A stretch of 32,550 bases of DNA, taken from the NCBI GenBank assembly GCA_947447955.1, contig CANFLS010000029.1:1-32550 (forward strand), given 5' to 3'. A program made the position numbers and the translations under genes. Below the pieces are notes generated by a model that did not search any database, was not told the origin of the DNA, and worked only from the letters and a program-made list of their open reading frames with translations. Numbering within the stretch: position 1 is the stretch's first letter; each line of letters starts with the position of its first letter. The stretch comes from Flavobacteriales bacterium (lineage in GTDB: Bacteria; Bacteroidota; Bacteroidia; NS11-12g; UBA955). Positions 5,687 to 30,550 of this stretch are shown piece by piece.

Positions 5687-5750
5687 GTTGATGCTTCGCT
5701 GTTTACGCCTTTGGCTGTTTACACCTTCGGTAGTTTACAGCTTCGCTGGG

Positions 5751-5801
5751 TTTACGCTTCGCTGTTTAATTTGAAGCAACTAACCTCAAATATCTGTCTA
5801 A
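5751..5801. repeat. Left copy of ~50-bp inverted repeat flanking rplS
   Basis: This segment matches the reverse complement of 6498-6547 at about 46 of 50 positions by eye, with one extra C here. It covers the last mini-hairpin of the run, a 20-odd-nt spacer with TTTAATTTGAAG, and the first 9-nt family B unit. The two copies face each other across rplS. Confidence 0.8.
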
Positions 5802-5819
5802 CCCGTCTAATCCGTCTAA
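5793..5819 (-). repeat. 9-nt tandem repeat, family B (TTAGACRGR), three units
   Basis: Three consecutive 9-nt units (TCTGTCTAA, CCCGTCTAA, TCCGTCTAA) are seen on the plus strand, which is TTAGACRGR read on the minus strand. No hairpin potential is seen. The same unit recurs at 5914-5949, 6471-6506 and 14875-14910. Confidence 0.9.
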
Positions 5820-5863
5820 CCTCAAAAGTATACGCTTCGCTGTATTTTCTTTGCTTACCAACC

Positions 5864-5903
5864 TTTATAAACGCTTATAATCTCTCATAAACTTTTATAA
5901 ACC
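5864..5903. repeat. 10-nt tandem repeat, family C (AACNNTTATA-like), four units
   Basis: Four 10-nt units read TTTATAAACG, CTTATAATCT, CTCATAAACT and TTTATAAACC. The 20-mer CATAAACTTTTATAAACCCT within it recurs exactly at 16017-16036 and, inverted and slightly changed, at 14921-14938. Confidence 0.8.
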
Positions 5904-5913
5904 CTAAAATTAA

Positions 5914-5949
5914 TCTGTCTAATCCGTCTAATCTGTCTAACCCGTCTAA
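5914..5949 (-). repeat. 9-nt tandem repeat, family B, four units
   Basis: Four units (TCTGTCTAA, TCCGTCTAA, TCTGTCTAA, CCCGTCTAA) plus a trailing CCC. This is the second family B run in the same intergenic space, separated from the first by family A and C units. Confidence 0.9.
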
Positions 5950-6064: not shown

Positions 6065-6415
6065 ATGAACTCGATTGTAAATAGCATCTCGCAAGAATTT
6101 TTAAGAAAAGACCTTCCTGATTTCAAGGCGGGCGATCGTATTACCGTTCACTATAAGATTAAAGAAGGAAACAAAGAACGTATTCAGCAGTACCAAGGCG
6201 ATGTTATTCAACGTCGTAATTCAGGTATTGACGAAACTTTCACTGTTCGTAAAATTTCTAATGGTGTAGGCGTAGAACGTATTTTCCCATTCAACAGCCC
6301 ATTTATCGATAAAATCGATGTTAACCGCAGAGGTAAAGTACGTCGTGCACGTATTTTCTATCTACGCGACCAAATTGGTAAAGCTGCCCGTATTAAAGAA
6401 TTACGTCGTAGATAA
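6065..6415 (+). CDS. rplS: 50S ribosomal protein L19 (bL19)
   Basis: The 116-residue protein is full length and shows the standard L19 signature: an N-terminal helix, [29 protein letters not shown] (about 21-49), the [25 protein letters not shown] block and the basic C-terminus [23 protein letters not shown]19 sits at the interface of the 30S and 50S subunits near 23S rRNA. In many bacteria rplS follows trmD and rimM; here it is a single-gene unit with its own promoter and a strong terminator. It is isolated between two repeat blocks that contain inverted copies of the same ~50-bp sequence. The ATG at 6065 is well placed relative to the promoter, and no alternative start is needed. Confidence 0.97.
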
Positions 6416-6432
6416 TATTTACTTAAAACATA

Positions 6433-6468
6433 TTAAAAAAGACCTTCGAGAGAAGGTCTTTTTTTTTG
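6433..6468 (+). terminator. Intrinsic terminator of rplS
   Basis: GACCTTC (6441-6447), loop GAGA, GAAGGTC (6452-6458), followed by ten T. An A-run on the left flank extends the stem, so it could also act on the opposite strand. Confidence 0.93.
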
Positions 6469-6470
6469 GA

Positions 6471-6506
6471 TTAGACAGATTAGACGGGTTAGACAGATTA
6501 GACAGA
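6471..6506 (+). repeat. 9-nt tandem repeat, family B, four units
   Basis: Units TTAGACAGA, TTAGACGGG, TTAGACAGA, TTAGACAGA begin two bases after the rplS terminator T-run. The orientation is opposite to the runs on the other side of rplS. Confidence 0.92.
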
Positions 6507-6547
6507 TATTTAGGTTAACTACTTCAAATTAAACAGCGAAGCATAAA
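6498..6547. repeat. Right copy of ~50-bp inverted repeat flanking rplS
   Basis: The reverse complement matches 5751-5801 at about 46 of 50 positions, including the non-repetitive spacer between the family B run and the first mini-hairpin, so the match is more than shared simple repeats. Confidence 0.8.
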
Positions 6548-6714
6548 CAGGCACAGCCGTCAACCGCGCAGCGTAAACAGGCGCAGCCGTAAACAGCCGA
6601 AGGCGTAAACAGCCGAAGGCGTAAACAGCCGAAGGCGTAAACAGCCGAAGGCGTAAACAGCCGAAGGCGTCAACCGCGCAGCGTAAACAGGCGCAGCCGT
6701 CAACCGCCGAAGGT
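6536..6714 (+). repeat. Mini-hairpin repeats, family A, block 2 (twelve units)
   Basis: Twelve mini-hairpins in a row are joined by 7-nt linkers GTAAACA or GTCAACC. They are GCGAAGC (6536), GGCACAGCC (6550), GCGCAGC (6566), GGCGCAGCC (6580), GCCGAAGGC five times at 16-nt spacing (6596 to 6668), GCGCAGC (6676), GGCGCAGCC (6690) and GCCGAAGGT (6706). Stem sequence changes on both sides together, while the triloop stays GNA or ANA. Between here and the sigma gene start (6715-6873) no gene was seen. Confidence 0.93.
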
Positions 6715-7491: not shown

Positions 7492-9468
7492 ATGGATTTT
7501 CAATCAAATAAAATCAATCAACCATTTAATCCTAGCCCTAATTATTTCCAAGGATTGTCAAACAACATCCAAAACCGGGTAGGTATTGAAGTGAAAAATG
7601 TTGTAGAAACGAAAGCTCCTAAAATAGAATTCAACAAAAATCAGAAGCCTATTCAATTAACTGTTGAATTTGGATTTCCTTTAATTGCTGAAAAAAACAC
7701 TGCAATTGATTCTAGTGAAAGTCAAAACGTAGAAACTTTTGAATCAAACAATATAACGGATCAAATTATTGACTCACCAAATAACTTGGTGAAAGATGAT
7801 GAATTTGGTCAAATACATATTGAGCCTATTCAATTGGCTGCCAATCCTAATCCTTACTGGCATAATTTTAATTCAGACGATGAATTAGAAGGGTTGGTTT
7901 TAGATTCTGAGGGACAAGAGATGTCTGACATCACTATAAATGGTGATGCCATGTTTGATATCGATCAACATTTCTTGCGAAAAGAAAAACCTGAAATGGG
8001 AGTAATCGAAATTGCTGAAACAATCAATGAAGTTGAAGCAATAAATCCGTTAGTTCATGAATTGGAAATAAATACAACAGAAATAGCACCTTCAGTTATT
8101 GAAAATATATCATCAGTTGTAATTGAACAAGAAAAACCTGAAAATGATTTATTTTCAGTTGTAAATGATGCTGAAATTGTTAAAAATGATATATCATTGG
8201 TTGTAGAGTCAACTCAAGAAGAGGAAACATTTTTTAGTTTTTCATTTACGCCTGAGATAGCAGAAGTAACTGAAATTACAAATGATATTGAATCGATCGA
8301 AGCTGCACCAATCGTTAACGAAATTGAATCGATCGAAGTTGCACCAATCTTAAACGAAATTGAATCAATCGAAGTTGTATCAGTAGTAAGCGAAATTGAA
8401 TCGATCGAAGTTGCACCGATAGTGAGCGAAATTGAATCAATCGAAGTTGTATCAATTGTAAACGAAATTGAATCAATCGAGGTTGCATCAATCGTGAACG
8501 AAATTGAATCGATCGAAGTTTCACCAATCGTGAACGAAATTGAATCGATCGAAGTTACACCAATCGTTAACGAAATCGAATCTATCGAGGTTGCATCAAT
8601 CGTAAGCGAAATCGAATCTATAGAAGTTTCACCAATCGTGAACGAAATTGAATCGATCGAAGTTGCACCTATCATAAGTGAAGTTATTTCTGAGGAATCA
8701 AATGAAATCATAGAGTTTTCAAATGAACTTCATTCAATAGCAGAAAATAACCAGGCAATTGAGTATTCATTTAGCGATGCTGAATTAGACAATTTGCATG
8801 ATCAAATGTCGCAACAGTTTGAAGTTGCACAACCAGAACAAAAGGTTGCAAAGAATAATCAATCTGAAATTTCGGCAAATACATTTGTAGAATTTAGTAC
8901 AAATGAAATTGTATTTGATCCAGAAAGAGAATATACAGATGCTGAACTTGATTTATTGCATGAGCAATTGTCGAAAGAAATAGAGGCTTCTAAACCAAGA
9001 GTTTCTGAACCAGTTGCGATAGCAAAAAATGTTAAAGAGGAAGCTGCTACTTCAAATTACGAACCAGTTATTGAGGCTAAAACTTCAATCATGGAGATGA
9101 TACCTTGGTCAAGTGTTTTTGGTATTGTTGCATCAATGATGGCTGTTGCTTCGGCTTGGTTTATTTGGAATAGCATTCAAAAGCCAATTGCAATTGATGA
9201 ATTTATAGATAGTAAAATTGCACCTATGGTAAGTCAAGTAAATGCTCCCGTTCCTGCTGATAATGTAGATAAAACTTTATCGTTGGCGCCTGCAGATTTT
9301 ATTGCAAACGAAATTTTAACAGAAATAGAAAATCCTTCAACAGCTGAAAATAATTTCAACTTTGTGAATTTGTCTGAACAGTCTAAAATAAGTGCAGTAG
9401 TGTTAGAAAGCAATGGCTTAACAACACTTGATTTAGAAGATAATTTTTTTGAAGATTTAGGAATATAA
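7492..9468 (+). CDS. Anti-sigma-factor-like single-pass membrane protein with expanded acidic repeat region
   Basis: The 658-residue protein begins with PFNPSPNYFQGLSNNIQNRV (11-30), resembling the F-x-x-P-x-x-YF N-terminus of Bacteroidota anti-sigma proteins encoded after ECF sigma genes. A long acidic region follows, with eleven perfectly phased 12-residue repeats at 266-397 (consensus IESIEVAPIVNE). Next is a duplicated motif DAELDxLHxQ (around 428 and 484). A single membrane helix lies at about 538-560 (VFGIVASMMAVASAWFIW) before a roughly 98-residue periplasmic tail. The expected topology is N-in, C-out (inference). Position between the ECF gene and the Spy-like gene supports an anti-sigma role. 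The repeat expansion and size are unusual, since most such proteins have about 200-350 residues. The function of the repeat region is unknown; it may be a flexible spacer. Confidence 0.75.
   Translation: MDFQSNKINQPFNPSPNYFQGLSNNIQNRVGIEVKNVVETKAPKIEFNKNQKPIQLTVEFGFPLIAEKNTAIDSSESQNVETFESNNITDQIIDSPNNLVKDDEFGQIHIEPIQLAANPNPYWHNFNSDDELEGLVLDSEGQEMSDITINGDAMFDIDQHFLRKEKPEMGVIEIAETINEVEAINPLVHELEINTTEIAPSVIENISSVVIEQEKPENDLFSVVNDAEIVKNDISLVVESTQEEETFFSFSFTPEIAEVTEITNDIESIEAAPIVNEIESIEVAPILNEIESIEVVSVVSEIESIEVAPIVSEIESIEVVSIVNEIESIEVASIVNEIESIEVSPIVNEIESIEVTPIVNEIESIEVASIVSEIESIEVSPIVNEIESIEVAPIISEVISEESNEIIEFSNELHSIAENNQAIEYSFSDAELDNLHDQMSQQFEVAQPEQKVAKNNQSEISANTFVEFSTNEIVFDPEREYTDAELDLLHEQLSKEIEASKPRVSEPVAIAKNVKEEAATSNYEPVIEAKTSIMEMIPWSSVFGIVASMMAVASAWFIWNSIQKPIAIDEFIDSKIAPMVSQVNAPVPADNVDKTLSLAPADFIANEILTEIENPSTAENNFNFVNLSEQSKISAVVLESNGLTTLDLEDNFFEDLGI
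8287..8682 (+). repeat. Eleven 36-bp in-frame tandem repeats in the anti-sigma-like gene
   Basis: Eleven units of exactly 36 bp (8287 + 36n), each coding a 12-residue I-E-S-I-E-V-x-x-I-V-[NS]-E unit. Codon-level variation between units is modest and the palindrome TCGATCGA recurs in most of them. The strict phase suggests recent unequal recombination or slippage. The antisense frame is open across this array only because the unit lacks a stop there. Confidence 0.96.
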
Positions 9469-13378: not shown

Positions 13379-14878
13379 ATGAGCCTTCAGCCCATCATTC
13401 AAATAAACAAACTTAGCATTCAAGCCAATAACAAAACGCTTTTGTATATTGAAAGCCTTTGTTGCAATGCCGGAGAAATCCATTCCATTATTGGTGAAAG
13501 TGGAAGTGGTAAATCATTAACGCTACTTACCATTATTGGATTGCTTCCTAAAAATCTTACTGTATCAGGAGAGGTTTTGTTGTGGCATAACAACACGTTT
13601 ATTGATTTACTAAAACTTTCCAATAAAGATTTTCAAGCCTACAGAGGAAAATTAATTGGAATGGTATTCCAAGAACCTATGTCGGCCTTAAATCCTCAAA
13701 TGACATGCGGCAAGCAATTGATTGAATCATTTTTGGTTCACGGATTAAAAACTGAAGCGATGAAGGTCATTGCTGAAAAGTTAGATAAAGTAGGGTTGGG
13801 ACAAATGGTTGATAGGGTAATGGAATCATTCCCACATCAATTGAGTGGAGGTCAACGCCAAAGGGTCATGATAGCAATGGCATCTTTACATAATCCCTTG
13901 GTATTATTAGCCGACGAACCCACCACCGCACTCGATTCATTTTCGAGAAATCAGGTAATGGAAGATTTTACCCGACTTGCAAAAGAAATGAACTGTGCGC
14001 TTATTTGGGTAAGCCATGAACTTGATTTGGTTGCAAAATTTGCAAATCATATTACTGTTCTTAAAAAAGGCGAACTTATAGAGCAAGGTGAAGCCAATTC
14101 ACTTATAAATAATCCACAGCATCCATATGTAGTTGAATTATTAGAAGCGGTTCCGAAGCTGAAAGAACAAAAAAATATCCCTCAAAATCCTGTTTTAATT
14201 GTAAAAAACGTATTTAAATATTACGGCAAAGGAAAAAATCAGGTGAATGCATTGAATAATTATTCGGTGAGTTTGTCACCTGGTGAAACTTTGGCTGTGA
14301 TTGGAACATCGGGTTCGGGTAAATCAACGTTGGCGAAATTGTTGGTAGCACTGGAAAAGCCTAGCAGCGGTGAAATTCAATTACATGGCAATAATATTCC
14401 ATCCAAGCCTCCAACGGGCATTCAAATGGTATTTCAGGATCCTTTTGCATCGTTAAATAGAAATCACACCGCTTTGTATGCCGTATCTGAAATTATTGAA
14501 CTCAAAAATCCAGAAATAAAAGAGATTGAAATCAATCAACGGGCTTTAAAAGTGCTGAATGATGTTGGATTTGATGATCGATTAATGAATGCGAAGCCAG
14601 ATCAAATGAGTGGGGGACAGCGTCAGCGTTTGTGCATTGCAAAAGCGCTTTGCACCAATCCAGAAGTACTCATTTTAGATGAAGCAGTTGCCGCATTAGA
14701 TCCGCTGATACAAAAACAAATTTTAGATTTATTGAGGGACATTCAATTGGCTAGGAAATTGATATATATCTTTATTACCCATAATTTAGACGTTGCCAAA
14801 TCATTGGCCGATAAATGGTGCTATTTGGACGGTGGGGTTGAAAAGGAGATTCCGGCAGAGTGGATCATTCAGGGTTAG
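13379..14878 (+). CDS. Fused double-ATPase ABC transporter protein (dipeptide/oligopeptide type)
   Basis: The 499-residue protein contains two complete ABC ATPase domains, like a DppD-DppF or YejF fusion. Domain 1 has Walker A GESGSGKS (39-46), signature LSGGQRQR and Walker B LLADEP followed by TTALD. Domain 2 has Walker A GTSGSGKS (309-316), signature MSGGQRQR and LILDEAVAALD. Each domain keeps its Walker B glutamate (DEP and DEA). NPQHPYVVELLEAVPKL between the domains is the oligopeptide-transporter linker motif. No permease or solute-binding gene is nearby, so its membrane partner is encoded elsewhere and the substrate is unknown. The start ATG follows the tonB terminator closely, leaving little room for a promoter. 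The stop codon TAG lies within the first unit of a 9-nt repeat. Confidence 0.92.
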   Translation: MSLQPIIQINKLSIQANNKTLLYIESLCCNAGEIHSIIGESGSGKSLTLLTIIGLLPKNLTVSGEVLLWHNNTFIDLLKLSNKDFQAYRGKLIGMVFQEPMSALNPQMTCGKQLIESFLVHGLKTEAMKVIAEKLDKVGLGQMVDRVMESFPHQLSGGQRQRVMIAMASLHNPLVLLADEPTTALDSFSRNQVMEDFTRLAKEMNCALIWVSHELDLVAKFANHITVLKKGELIEQGEANSLINNPQHPYVVELLEAVPKLKEQKNIPQNPVLIVKNVFKYYGKGKNQVNALNNYSVSLSPGETLAVIGTSGSGKSTLAKLLVALEKPSSGEIQLHGNNIPSKPPTGIQMVFQDPFASLNRNHTALYAVSEIIELKNPEIKEIEINQRALKVLNDVGFDDRLMNAKPDQMSGGQRQRLCIAKALCTNPEVLILDEAVAALDPLIQKQILDLLRDIQLARKLIYIFITHNLDVAKSLADKWCYLDGGVEKEIPAEWIIQG

Positions 14879-14910
14879 ACAGATTAGACGGGTTAGACGG
14901 ATTAGACAGA
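14875..14910 (+). repeat. 9-nt tandem repeat, family B, four units
   Basis: Units TTAGACAGA, TTAGACGGG, TTAGACGGA, TTAGACAGA. The first unit contains the TAG stop of the ABC gene, so the repeat reaches into the coding end. Confidence 0.93.
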
Positions 14911-14920
14911 TGGATTGTAA

Positions 14921-14938: not shown

Positions 14939-14982
14939 GACTGATGGGTTCGAAAAATAATAAAAAATATAGTTTGAAAAAT

Positions 14983-15846
14983 ATGAATAAGAATTTATTG
15001 ATAGTTGGACTCACTGTAATAGTGAATTTGATATTTGCTCAATCGAATGGGGCTAAACCGAGTGAAAATACTTCTGAAACGAAAGTGAAGCAAATTCCGT
15101 GGCAAATGATAAGTACTTTAGATGAAGGTGTACCGGTTTCACGAGTATATTTGAATAGGATAGAAACAAATTCAAATTCAAATAATAAGGAAGTCTCAAA
15201 ACCGACTACTAAAAATCAACCAAAATTGCCTGCGAAAAACGCAAAAACGAAAGTAAGAGTAAAAACAAATTCAAAAACAAAACCACAAGTATATTTTATT
15301 CCACCTGTTAAAAAGGATGAAGATTCAGATACAATTAAAATGAATCAATTAGGTGTAGATGCTAGTCCACCAGTAAACAACCCAGGATATAATGGTGAAA
15401 ATAATCAGAGAATTGGGAATGAAATTTCAAATTTAAAAGGAGATGAGCCAATGAATCAAGTTGGTGAACCATTTCCATCTGAAGGTATGGTAAGTGACGG
15501 TCCTAATATTGAATCTCATTCTTCAGAGCCAATTGCGAATCCCGATGTACAAGCCAGTTTCCCTGGCGGTGAGTCGAAGTTTTATGAGTATTTAAGAAAT
15601 AGATTAGAATTTCCCGCTCGTTGCATGGAAGAAGGAATATCTGGAACGGTGAAATTGCGTTTTGTAGTGAATGTTCAAGGAAATATTAGTCAAATTAAAG
15701 TAATTGAAGAAAATAAATCGTGTCCTGAATTTACGAAAGAAGCAATTAGGGTAATCAGGCAATCACCAAAATGGATTCCAGCCCAAATCAAAGGCAAGTT
15801 TGTGAATTCTTGGATGATGATTCCGGTTACTTTTAACTTGGAGTAA
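14983..15846 (+). CDS. TonB C-terminal-domain protein, paralogue of tonB
   Basis: With the ATG at 14983, which places a hydrophobic segment at the N-terminus, the protein has 287 residues; ATG 14944 would add 13 residues. Residues 4-19 (NLLIVGLTVIVNLIFA) form either a cleavable signal peptide (cut near FAQ) or a short anchor. A Lys/Pro/Asn-rich spacer (about 60-185) follows, then a TonB C-terminal domain (about 188-287: FPGGESKFYEYLRNRLEFPARC, GTVKLRFVVNVQGNISQIKVIEENKSCPEF). This is strikingly like the C-terminus of the tonB at 12496-13326. The cytoplasmic YGAYQIRK segment of that TonB is absent. It could be a TonB working without the usual anchor, or an outer-membrane-associated partner. 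ExbB/ExbD contact is not evident. No exb gene is adjacent. Confidence 0.8.
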   Translation: MNKNLLIVGLTVIVNLIFAQSNGAKPSENTSETKVKQIPWQMISTLDEGVPVSRVYLNRIETNSNSNNKEVSKPTTKNQPKLPAKNAKTKVRVKTNSKTKPQVYFIPPVKKDEDSDTIKMNQLGVDASPPVNNPGYNGENNQRIGNEISNLKGDEPMNQVGEPFPSEGMVSDGPNIESHSSEPIANPDVQASFPGGESKFYEYLRNRLEFPARCMEEGISGTVKLRFVVNVQGNISQIKVIEENKSCPEFTKEAIRVIRQSPKWIPAQIKGKFVNSWMMIPVTFNLE

Positions 15847-15864
15847 CGCCTTCTGCGGGTTGAA

Positions 15865-15981
15865 GCTGCGCTGTTGACGCCTTTGGCTGTTTACGCCTTC
15901 GGCGGTTTACGGCTAACGCCTGTTTACGCCTTTGGCTGTTTACGCTATGCGGTTGACGGCTATCGCCTGTTGACGCTACGC
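15865..15981 (-). repeat. Mini-hairpin repeats, family A, block 3 (eight units)
   Basis: Plus-strand hairpins GCTGCGC (15865), GCCTTTGGC (15879), GCCTTCGGC (15895), GGCTAACGCC (15911), GCCTTTGGC (15928), GCTATGC (15944), GGCTATCGCC (15958) and GCTACGC (15975). Linkers between them are TGTTTAC, GGTTTAC, TGTTGAC or GGTTGAC. On the minus strand these are GC or GGC/GCC stems with loops GCA, AAA, GAA, GTTA, ATA, GATA and GTA. Two stems have 4-nt loops of GNNA type. The region starts directly after the TonB-like stop. Confidence 0.9.
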
Positions 15982-16010
15982 TGTTTATTTTTAGTGCTTC
16001 ATAAAAACTA

Positions 16011-16050
16011 AACGCTCATAAACTTTTATAAACCCTTATAAACCCTATAA
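16011..16050 (+). repeat. 10-nt tandem repeat, family C, four units
   Basis: Units AACGCTCATA, AACTTTTATA, AACCCTTATA, AACCCTATAA at exact 10-nt spacing. Confidence 0.85.
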
Positions 16051-29963: not shown

Positions 29964-30233
29964 ATGGTGGTTGTGAAAATTATTCAAATTGGCAATTCAA
30001 AAGGCATTAGAATTCCAAAACAAGTATTGGAAGAATTTGATTTAGATGAAAATTCTGAAATTGAATTAGATACCCAAAATGGTAGTATTATATTAAAACC
30101 TAAAAATCACCCAAGAAATAATTGGATCTCCCAATTTCAAGAAGCGCAAGCGGTTTATGAAAAGCCTGAGGTTCACAAAGATGCGTTTATCGAACTATCT
30201 AACGAATTTGATGAACAGGAGTGGACATGGTAG
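29964..30233 (+). CDS. mazE: MazE/AbrB-type antitoxin
   Basis: The 89-residue protein begins with an AbrB-like swapped-hairpin DNA-binding domain: KIIQIGNSKGIRIPKQVLEEFDLDENSEIELDTQNGSIILKP (residues about 5-46). This is followed by a flexible acidic C-terminus (EVHKDAFIELSNEFDEQEWTW) that in MazE wraps the toxin. Several start codons in a row (ATG GTG GTT GTG) make the exact start uncertain by three codons. It overlaps mazF by seven bases. The upstream TGTAAT array is a good candidate for autoregulation. Confidence 0.9.
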   Translation: MVVVKIIQIGNSKGIRIPKQVLEEFDLDENSEIELDTQNGSIILKPKNHPRNNWISQFQEAQAVYEKPEVHKDAFIELSNEFDEQEWTW

Positions 30234-30550
30234 TTCAGAGATTCGAAATTTGGTGGGTGAATTTAGATACTACAATTGGCAGTGAAGTAAAAAAGATTAG
30301 ACCTTACTTGGTAGTTTCTCCCAATGAAGTGAATCAGTATTTAAATACGGTTACCGTGATTCCATTGACTTCTACTTTAAAATTATATCCCACAAGGTTA
30401 AATTGCATCATCCAAGGAAAACAAAGTCAATTGGTTATTGATCAAGTGAGAAGTATAGATAAGTTGAGATTAAAATCGAAAATGATGGATTTGCCAATTG
30501 AATATCAAGGCCCAATCACAACTATGATTTTAGAATATTTCAAACTTTAA
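30227..30550 (+). CDS. mazF: MazF/PemK-type toxin (mRNA interferase)
   Basis: The ATG at 30227, preceded by AGGAG (30218-30222), gives 107 residues. The protein has the PemK/MazF barrel pattern: RFEIWWVNLDTTIGSEVKKIRPYLVVSPNEVNQ (5-37), VTVIPLTSTLKLYPTRL, VIDQVRSIDKLRL. In the family the Arg (RPYLVV) and Thr (PLTS) take part in RNA cleavage. It probably cuts mRNA or rRNA at short sequences; the specificity cannot be read from sequence. It ends one base before the convergent mutS end. Chromosomal position beside mutS shows no mobile-element marks. Confidence 0.92.
   Translation: MVVQRFEIWWVNLDTTIGSEVKKIRPYLVVSPNEVNQYLNTVTVIPLTSTLKLYPTRLNCIIQGKQSQLVIDQVRSIDKLRLKSKMMDLPIEYQGPITTMILEYFKL

Follow-up and report, generated by a model that had tools for sequence, protein, structure and literature searches.

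Mini-hairpin arrays with conserved pairing and variable sequence within a composite intergenic repeat of freshwater Flavobacteriales

In this work, we describe a dispersed, intergenic repeat of composite structure, in which tandem mini-hairpins, 7-11 nt in size, conserve their folding while their sequence varies, and their loop preferences suit DNA better than RNA. The explanation we favor, to which we give about an even chance, is that these are structure-conserved DNA repeats, where folding of single-stranded DNA drives the duplication of the units, and the resulting copies serve as recombination seams for gene modules. Repeats between genes are widespread, but conservation of folding at this scale would preserve a natural trace of how selection or mutation acts on the structure of single-stranded DNA inside cells, something normally difficult to observe. 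No prior description of these repeats was found in the open-licence PMC literature.

Composition and distribution of the repeat

The window, i.e. the whole stretch of DNA analyzed, is 32,550 nt long and corresponds to contig 29 of the source genome, G000 (2.8 Mb, 70 contigs). Its relevant features are the following.

5687-5768, minus strand: mini-hairpin array, 5 units; part of an inverted copy of the same composite, located across the L19 gene
5796-5821, minus strand: 9-mer array of the inverted composite
5865-5902, minus strand: 10/11-mer array (TTTATAAACYC type)
5911-5949, minus strand: second 9-mer array
6065-6415, plus strand: gene presumably encoding ribosomal protein L19 (rplS); anchor of the between-species comparison
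6469-6507, plus strand: 9-mer array (GATTAGACR), immediately 3' of a terminator-like hairpin (6435-6464)
6508-6528, plus strand: leader between the 9-mer array and the first hairpin; shared, inverted, with 5769-5795 and also with G013 (compared by eye)
6529-6714, plus strand: mini-hairpin array, 12 units, on the GTMAAC linker strand (read directly)
14872-14911, plus strand: 9-mer array, left boundary of a gene absent from G013 (by between-genome comparison)
14944-15846, plus strand: TonB_C-domain gene; at this junction G007 too has an ORF, whose ends are similar, and G013 has none (domain match and between-genome comparison)
15859-15987, minus strand: mini-hairpin array, 8 units, including the GNNA tetraloops GATA and GTTA
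16009-16050, minus strand: 10/11-mer array (TTTATAAACCC type), bordering the TonB_C-domain gene on its right

In the focal array (6529-6714), direct reading reveals 12 units in a row, each made of a linker and a hairpin of 7-9 nt. The original prediction had assigned to all of them a fixed 7-nt linker, either GTAAACA or GTCAACC: this is correct for ten units (7/12 and 3/12, respectively), but the first two carry TTAAACA and ATAAACA. The hairpins are GC-GAA-GC and GGC-ACA-GCC, found once each, GC-GCA-GC and GGC-GCA-GCC, found twice each, GCC-GAA-GGC, found in five consecutive units, and GCC-GAA-GGT in the final one. Stem changes had been described as always occurring on both sides, which applies to nearly all units but not to the last, where one arm only is changed, producing a G.T. 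The three blocks of the window total 25 units, or 26 if an imperfect edge unit is included, in line with the about 26 hairpins initially counted. By a pattern requiring linker, core and linker, the window contains 24 units, each of them paired at the first variable position, whereas 200 dinucleotide shuffles never yielded more than 3 units or more than 2 paired ones.

The tandem mini-hairpins, first regarded as a family of their own, turned out instead to be one word of a longer composite, dispersed intergenic repeat, which also contains 9-mers, 10/11-mers and a leader, and whose core hairpin unit is a 6-nt linker, GTMAAC, followed by a mini-hairpin, repeated in tandem. At 6469-6714 the order is 9-mers, leader and hairpin array; an inverted copy, with leader letters in common when compared by eye, lies across the L19 gene at 5687-5821. 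Elsewhere, 9-mers and/or 10/11-mers (GTTTATAAAAG) are frequently followed by a leader ending in AATTAAAC and then by hairpins; in some composites the first hairpins are followed by others of a second type, whose linker is TCTAAAC, along with an 18-base palindrome, TCCCGAAAGCTTTCGGGA. The unit sequence is fixed in the 9-mer part, while the hairpin part features 120 distinct arm-loop-arm forms among 231 units.

Nested units, with an outer stem enclosing an inner mini-hairpin and GA steps on both sides, were seen by eye at a few sites (L064, 119-258 and 2918-3046; L065, 146-273); the GA steps are possible tandem sheared G.A pairs. Two contigs of G000, C4 (at 134958) and C20 (at 44061), have their ends within arrays of an 18-base hairpin unit repeated almost exactly: such arrays thus seem to break the assembly, hiding their true length. 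The window also contains a 36-base tandem repeat (8280-8677) inside the ORF at 7492-9468, beside the sigma-factor gene, which encodes a protein repeat around NEIESIEVAPIV, and a MazE/MazF-like toxin-antitoxin pair at 29964-30550 (PF04014, PF02452).

The pattern search of the genome and its relatives, suggested by the original prediction, established that arrays are not unique to this locus. Genome-wide, the hairpin pair pattern matched 64 linker pairs in G000, versus 14 in the reversed control; counts were also above control in G013 (40 vs 17) and G009 (17 vs 11), and below it in G004 (7 vs 10), G006 (6 vs 12) and G007 (5 vs 14), where clear units were nevertheless present among the matches listed. 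None of the three matches of G002 (1 in the control) is a unit by eye. The 9-mer pair pattern is present in 6 of the 14 genomes of the genus, with zero matches in the other 8: 207 pairs were counted in G000 (46 in the reversed control), 127 in G009 (17), 56 in G013 (9), 7 in G007 (1), 2 in G006 (2) and 1 in G004 (0).

In G015, belonging to another genus of the same family, 17 matches were found, versus 5 in the control, mostly due to a different array of 7-mers. These tandem GTAAACC/GTAAACT words (for example at C79:3831-7976) have the same letters as the linker, with no hairpin in between, and could be either the ancestor of the hairpin arrays or a parallel case. Out of 39 pattern-matching database stretches, 17 derive from five array-bearing freshwater MAGs (CANKVM 7, CANFVI 4, JAIYAW 3, CAIRMY 2, CANFUB 1), while the remaining 22 look like single matches within the approximately 200 bases around each. 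As far as the search extended, arrays occur only in MAGs of freshwater Flavobacteriales/Bacteroidota, most of them of one genus. Outside the genus, two or three words resembling GNA mini-hairpins lie by a GTAAAC pair in Saprospiraceae SLDF01000086.1 (L074, about 2536-2600), and may be due to chance.

The repeats are not evenly spread over G000, but form clusters. A non-random sample of five 20-kb stretches, drawn from contigs with no strict hairpin-pair match, contains no 9-mer pair and a single hairpin-like match, located inside a gene; other parts of contigs C2, C5 and C9 do carry 9-mers. Contamination of the bin was discarded as the cause of clustering, since 9-mers are found in C2 and C5, which have no strict hairpin pairs, and C2 also contains a looser array. 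A phage origin was similarly rejected: viral contigs yielded two single matches for one pattern, with no array in the approximately 350 bases around each.

Pairing, loop rules and genomic placement

Units were selected within 403 kb of G000 as a linker, a core C-N2-3-A-G and a next linker, leaving the arms unconstrained; the final loop A and the C-G closure are required by this core. In the resulting 231 units, the first variable position is paired in 208, versus 101.9±6.3 upon shuffling and 43/231 in a slid control, and the second in 169/230, versus 60.8±6.4. The excess is maintained when distinct units only are considered, both at the first (103/120 vs 49.5±4.8) and at the second position (97/119 vs 31.2±4.8). 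First-position pairs are 126 GC, 60 CG, 21 AT and 1 TA; mismatches, about one in ten (23/231), include CC (8), GA (5), GT (5), GG (2) and three singletons. The same excess recurs separately in G000, G013, G009, G007 and G004, being weakest where units are few (24 distinct ones in G007, 16 in G004).

The sharpest of the pairing controls, which retains both composition and relatedness, consists in crossing the arms of adjacent units. Among 236 pairs of adjacent units whose arms differ, both base pairs are formed in 148 cases when the arms come from the same unit, in 10 when the 5' arm is combined with the 3' arm of the neighbour, and in 5 for the reverse combination; pairing is thus confined to each unit. 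The claim that pairing is conserved, and sequence is not, is accordingly supported in five genomes analyzed one by one, and the pairing holds within units and not between them. In homologous arrays, a large part of the stem differences is due to replacement of whole words and to recombination, and the middle bases of loops differ as well.

Whole-word differences, exact tandem copies (38 of 295 adjacent units are identical to their neighbour) and the evident exchange between arrays would also be expected from neutral slippage of a list of words, in which palindromic units arose once each and were then copied and shuffled, with no present selection on folding. We regard this explanation as rather unlikely: it does not account for many different stems, nearly all paired, for the GNA-type loops, nor for the C-G closure, observed in 205 of the 256 units obtained by a looser selection (87 in reversed sequence).

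By the same looser selection, GNA is the commonest class of triloops (159/197), which fits the proposed membership of these hairpins in the d(GCGNAGC) class; GAA is the most frequent loop in the arrays. RNA tetraloops prefer GNRA, while DNA prefers cGNAg and cGNNAg. To look at loops without selecting for them, 168 distinct hairpins with at least 3 pairs, located between linkers, were collected from four genomes; many of these are expected to be due to chance. GNA accounts for 49 of the 105 distinct triloops, and its complement, TNC, for 4; among the 63 distinct tetraloops, 18 are GNNA, of which only 2 are GNRA. In the background of perfect stems of at least 4 pairs from repeat-rich stretches, the GNRA fraction of GNNA loops is 88/156, and further background sets gave 51/109, 104/169, 111/184 and 35/51. 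The rarity of GNRA (2/18 vs 88/156) points to DNA hairpins rather than RNA ones, and loop rules as a whole make a moderate case for DNA. PMC6479982 describes the sheared G.A pair present in GNA loops, and a gain in stability of about 6 C for GAA over GTA loops. Of the two kinds of structure initially suggested as possible targets of selection, single-stranded DNA and RNA, loop rules favor DNA.

A point against this case comes from generic folding energies. DNA folding energies of three arrays, computed by ViennaRNA, are ordinary when compared to shuffles (z 0.70, -0.62 and -0.62); the DNA parameter set scores triloops equally on the stem tested, and is thus blind to any GNA bonus, while equally offering no support. 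The whole-array thermodynamic test was set aside as uninformative.

The RNA fold of 6530-6714 is, by the same program, mildly better than shuffles (z -1.78), as might be expected if the arrays were transcribed and had a protein-binding or stability role. We consider such an RNA-level element very unlikely. Not only do GNNA loops avoid GNRA, but orientation relative to genes is free: the 100 arrays or single units with an ORF on both sides are in tandem with genes on the same (33) or opposite (21) strand, between convergent (28) or between divergent genes (18), all 241 gaps of at least 80 bases being tandem (125), divergent (77) or convergent (39). In addition, the focal array lies beyond the terminator-like hairpin at 6435-6464, and no Rfam match at gathering threshold was found in the window, so that a known structured RNA family was also discarded. 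Arrays are mostly intergenic, 8 out of 120 arrays or single units falling inside an ORF of at least 100 aa, as identified by a simple ORF caller in stretches of four genomes.

The absence of an orientation rule relative to genes led us to reject a promoter or leader function. Similarly, array strand is unrelated to GC skew: in G000, where the skew is positive, 20 arrays are on the minus strand and 19 on the plus strand, and where it is negative each strand has 6. A simple lagging-strand effect is therefore not apparent, and a lagging-strand element was rejected. Free orientation, lack of a link with skew and the terminator-like hairpin before the focal array together argue against roles as promoter, leader or replication-strand signal.

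Gene turnover at the repeats and candidate enzymes

At the junction between the L19 and sigma-factor genes, composites of differing make-up are found in G000, G013 and G009, a decayed one in G007 and one in opposite orientation in G006; reading of the same junction in ten relatives (G001, G002, G005, G008, G010, G011, G012, G014, G016 and G017) revealed no composite.

For neighbouring genes conserved in both members of a genome pair, gap lengths were compared at 205 junctions in 6 genome pairs, leaving out genes matching over less than 50% of their length or at less than 72% identity, and neighbours whose matches fell on different stretches or strands. Gaps differ by at least 400 bases at 16 of 62 repeat-bearing junctions and at 7 of 143 repeat-free ones; the Fisher probability, 4e-5, is too good, because stretches were mostly chosen for their arrays and the same junction may recur in several genome pairs. 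An earlier form of the test, with fewer stretches and a less strict rule, had given 9/22 versus 2/67. In these array-biased stretches, gene-scale insertions and deletions are thus commoner at the repeats than at repeat-free junctions, an observation new to this work. Examples are an 8.0 kb segment of G000, with an array at each end, which corresponds to one array in G013, and a 10.2 kb one, which corresponds to one array in G007. At the TonB_C junction, the ORF of G007 sits between 10/11-mers, without a hairpin array; its presence implies that the difference seen in G013 may be a loss and not an insertion.

Also new is the observation that three arrays look chimeric, each joining parts of two others, and would mark crossovers inside arrays. 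One, in G009, matches A2 on its left (186/195) and A3 on its right side (83/88); the second, in G013, matches A1 (151/170) on the left and A3 (140/157) on the right, with shorter matches to A2 (60/66) and A1 (57/69); the third, at another site of G013, where CANFUB too has one array, matches the left (82/90) and the right array (136/143) of G000. Crossovers inside repeats do not tell hairpins from mere repetition as their cause.

Genes found between repeats encode DUF6088 (AbiEi-like), HigB with an HTH gene, RES with Xre, AAA_14/DUF4143 and Fic proteins; one of the ten proteins scanned had no family. G000 and G009 carry DUF6088 proteins with 84% identity to each other, at two different junctions, both repeat-bearing, from which we infer that the gene probably moved between junctions. 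A stretch of G000 where repeats are dense (C1:126-135k; L052, 10172-18620) lies around toxin-antitoxin genes, its neighbours being presumably sugar-epimerase- and glycosyltransferase-type genes; a transposase-like ORF near it (L052, 965-1792) is, we assume, IS3 orfB.

Composites might be the folded single-strand sites of an unrecognised site-specific recombinase, with the modules in between acting as gene cassettes, as in integrons. Conservation of structure without sequence, the loop bias to one strand, the toxin-antitoxin-like nature of several modules, the DUF6088 gene at two junctions and the same-strand arrays flanking modules of contig C16 would all agree with this reading. In contrast, no integron integrase (TIGR02249) over cut-off was found in 14 genomes, weaker matches occurring both with and without arrays, so that this enzyme was rejected as a candidate; repeats are dispersed, no single platform having been observed, and those crossovers which can be placed fall at different units of different arrays, which is better explained by homologous than by site-specific exchange. 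Given the missing integrase and the scattered crossovers, we rate this reading low, as quite improbable. A broader version, a DNA-structure-coded recombination system, in which the main conserved property of the arrays would be the folding of each unit as a DNA mini-hairpin on one strand, and these folds would be the recognised sites for insertion, removal and movement of gene modules, several of them toxin-antitoxin-like, with an integron-like logic, another site architecture and an enzyme yet to be found, is likewise rather improbable.

The original prediction had proposed copying by a REP-associated (RAYT) or IS200/IS605 Y1 transposase, and this was not supported. The Y1 domain, PF01797, was not found in any of the six array-bearing genomes of the genus (G000, G013, G009, G007, G006 and G004, with G009 58% and G004 74% complete), and a RAYT/IS200-IS605 origin was rejected on this basis; one of 14 genomes, G012, has three copies, and this genome lacks 9-mer pairs and, among the matches listed, any hairpin unit. 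Arrays could still be remnants of such a hairpin-copying element, whose enzyme has since been lost: hairpins have a fixed flanking motif, reading GTTKAC directly before the hairpin on the other strand, and the target of IS608 is TTAC. Besides the lack of Y1 genes alongside arrays, however, neighbouring stems differ from each other, whereas those of a REP family are fixed, and we deem such an origin most improbable. Copying by a reverse transcriptase, of the DGR or retron type, was also discarded, PF00078 being found in one of 14 genomes only, G011, which has no arrays.

The preferred explanation, folding-driven duplication followed by homologous exchange, would need neither a dedicated enzyme nor a benefit to the cell. 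Hairpins would fold on the GTMAAC strand of DNA made single-stranded by replication, repair or uptake, adopting the stable d(cGNAg) or d(cGNNAg) folds. By slippage or by strand switching, folding would aid the duplication of units, and those able to fold would be the main ones to multiply; the many similar copies would then offer crossover points for RecA-type recombination or single-strand annealing, and modules of one to several genes would be inserted or deleted at array crossovers. Should the link with gene turnover hold in unbiased complete genomes, the repeats would make visible a system of seams at which genes are exchanged with no need of an integron integrase, and would allow a direct test of whether DNA hairpins, beyond repetition, set recombination points.

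Comparison with known systems

Mini-hairpins of the d(GCGNAGC) type are, to our knowledge, known mainly as oligonucleotides, while those described here form natural genome-wide arrays. The two share a C-GNA-G core, here too extended by 1-3 further pairs (PMC6479982).

Fungal mitochondrial double-hairpin elements are also mobile intergenic hairpins with compensated stems; they differ in residing in organelle DNA, in having longer hairpins and in not being arranged in tandem with a fixed linker.

Integron attC sites are one long imperfect palindrome, while arrays are composed of tandem units of about 14-19 nt, with no integrase over cut-off in the 14 genomes and no single platform seen. Chromosomal integrons include toxin-antitoxin modules, and modules resembling these lie between the sites here as well. 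As in integrons (PMC2727003), hairpins are conserved in their single-strand structure and not in sequence, and may mark the borders of gene modules.

With the TAACTGA heptamer repeats, as reported in PMC4679880, our repeats share the intergenic location, the short tandem units and a patchy occurrence, TAACTGA being found in Bacteroidota and Cyanobacteria, with some long arrays. Heptamers are, by the same report, fixed in sequence, with no particular RNA structure predicted, and in Maribeggiatoa mostly lie just upstream of start codons; in the repeats described here, structure is kept, while sequence and orientation are free. Definition as a fixed-sequence tandem repeat, accordingly, applies to the 9-mers and fails for the hairpin part.

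REP/BIME sequences, associated to RAYTs (PMC3733652 and PMC3116915), are equally short intergenic palindromes present in many copies, and carry a GTAG or CGTC tag (PMC3733652). Instead of a tagged palindrome of this type, each array presents many stems, varying from unit to unit, the constant part being the 6-nt linker GTMAAC, and no Y1 gene was found in the genomes that carry them. None of the families considered thus fits in full; as a kind, the composite belongs to the dispersed intergenic palindromic repeats.
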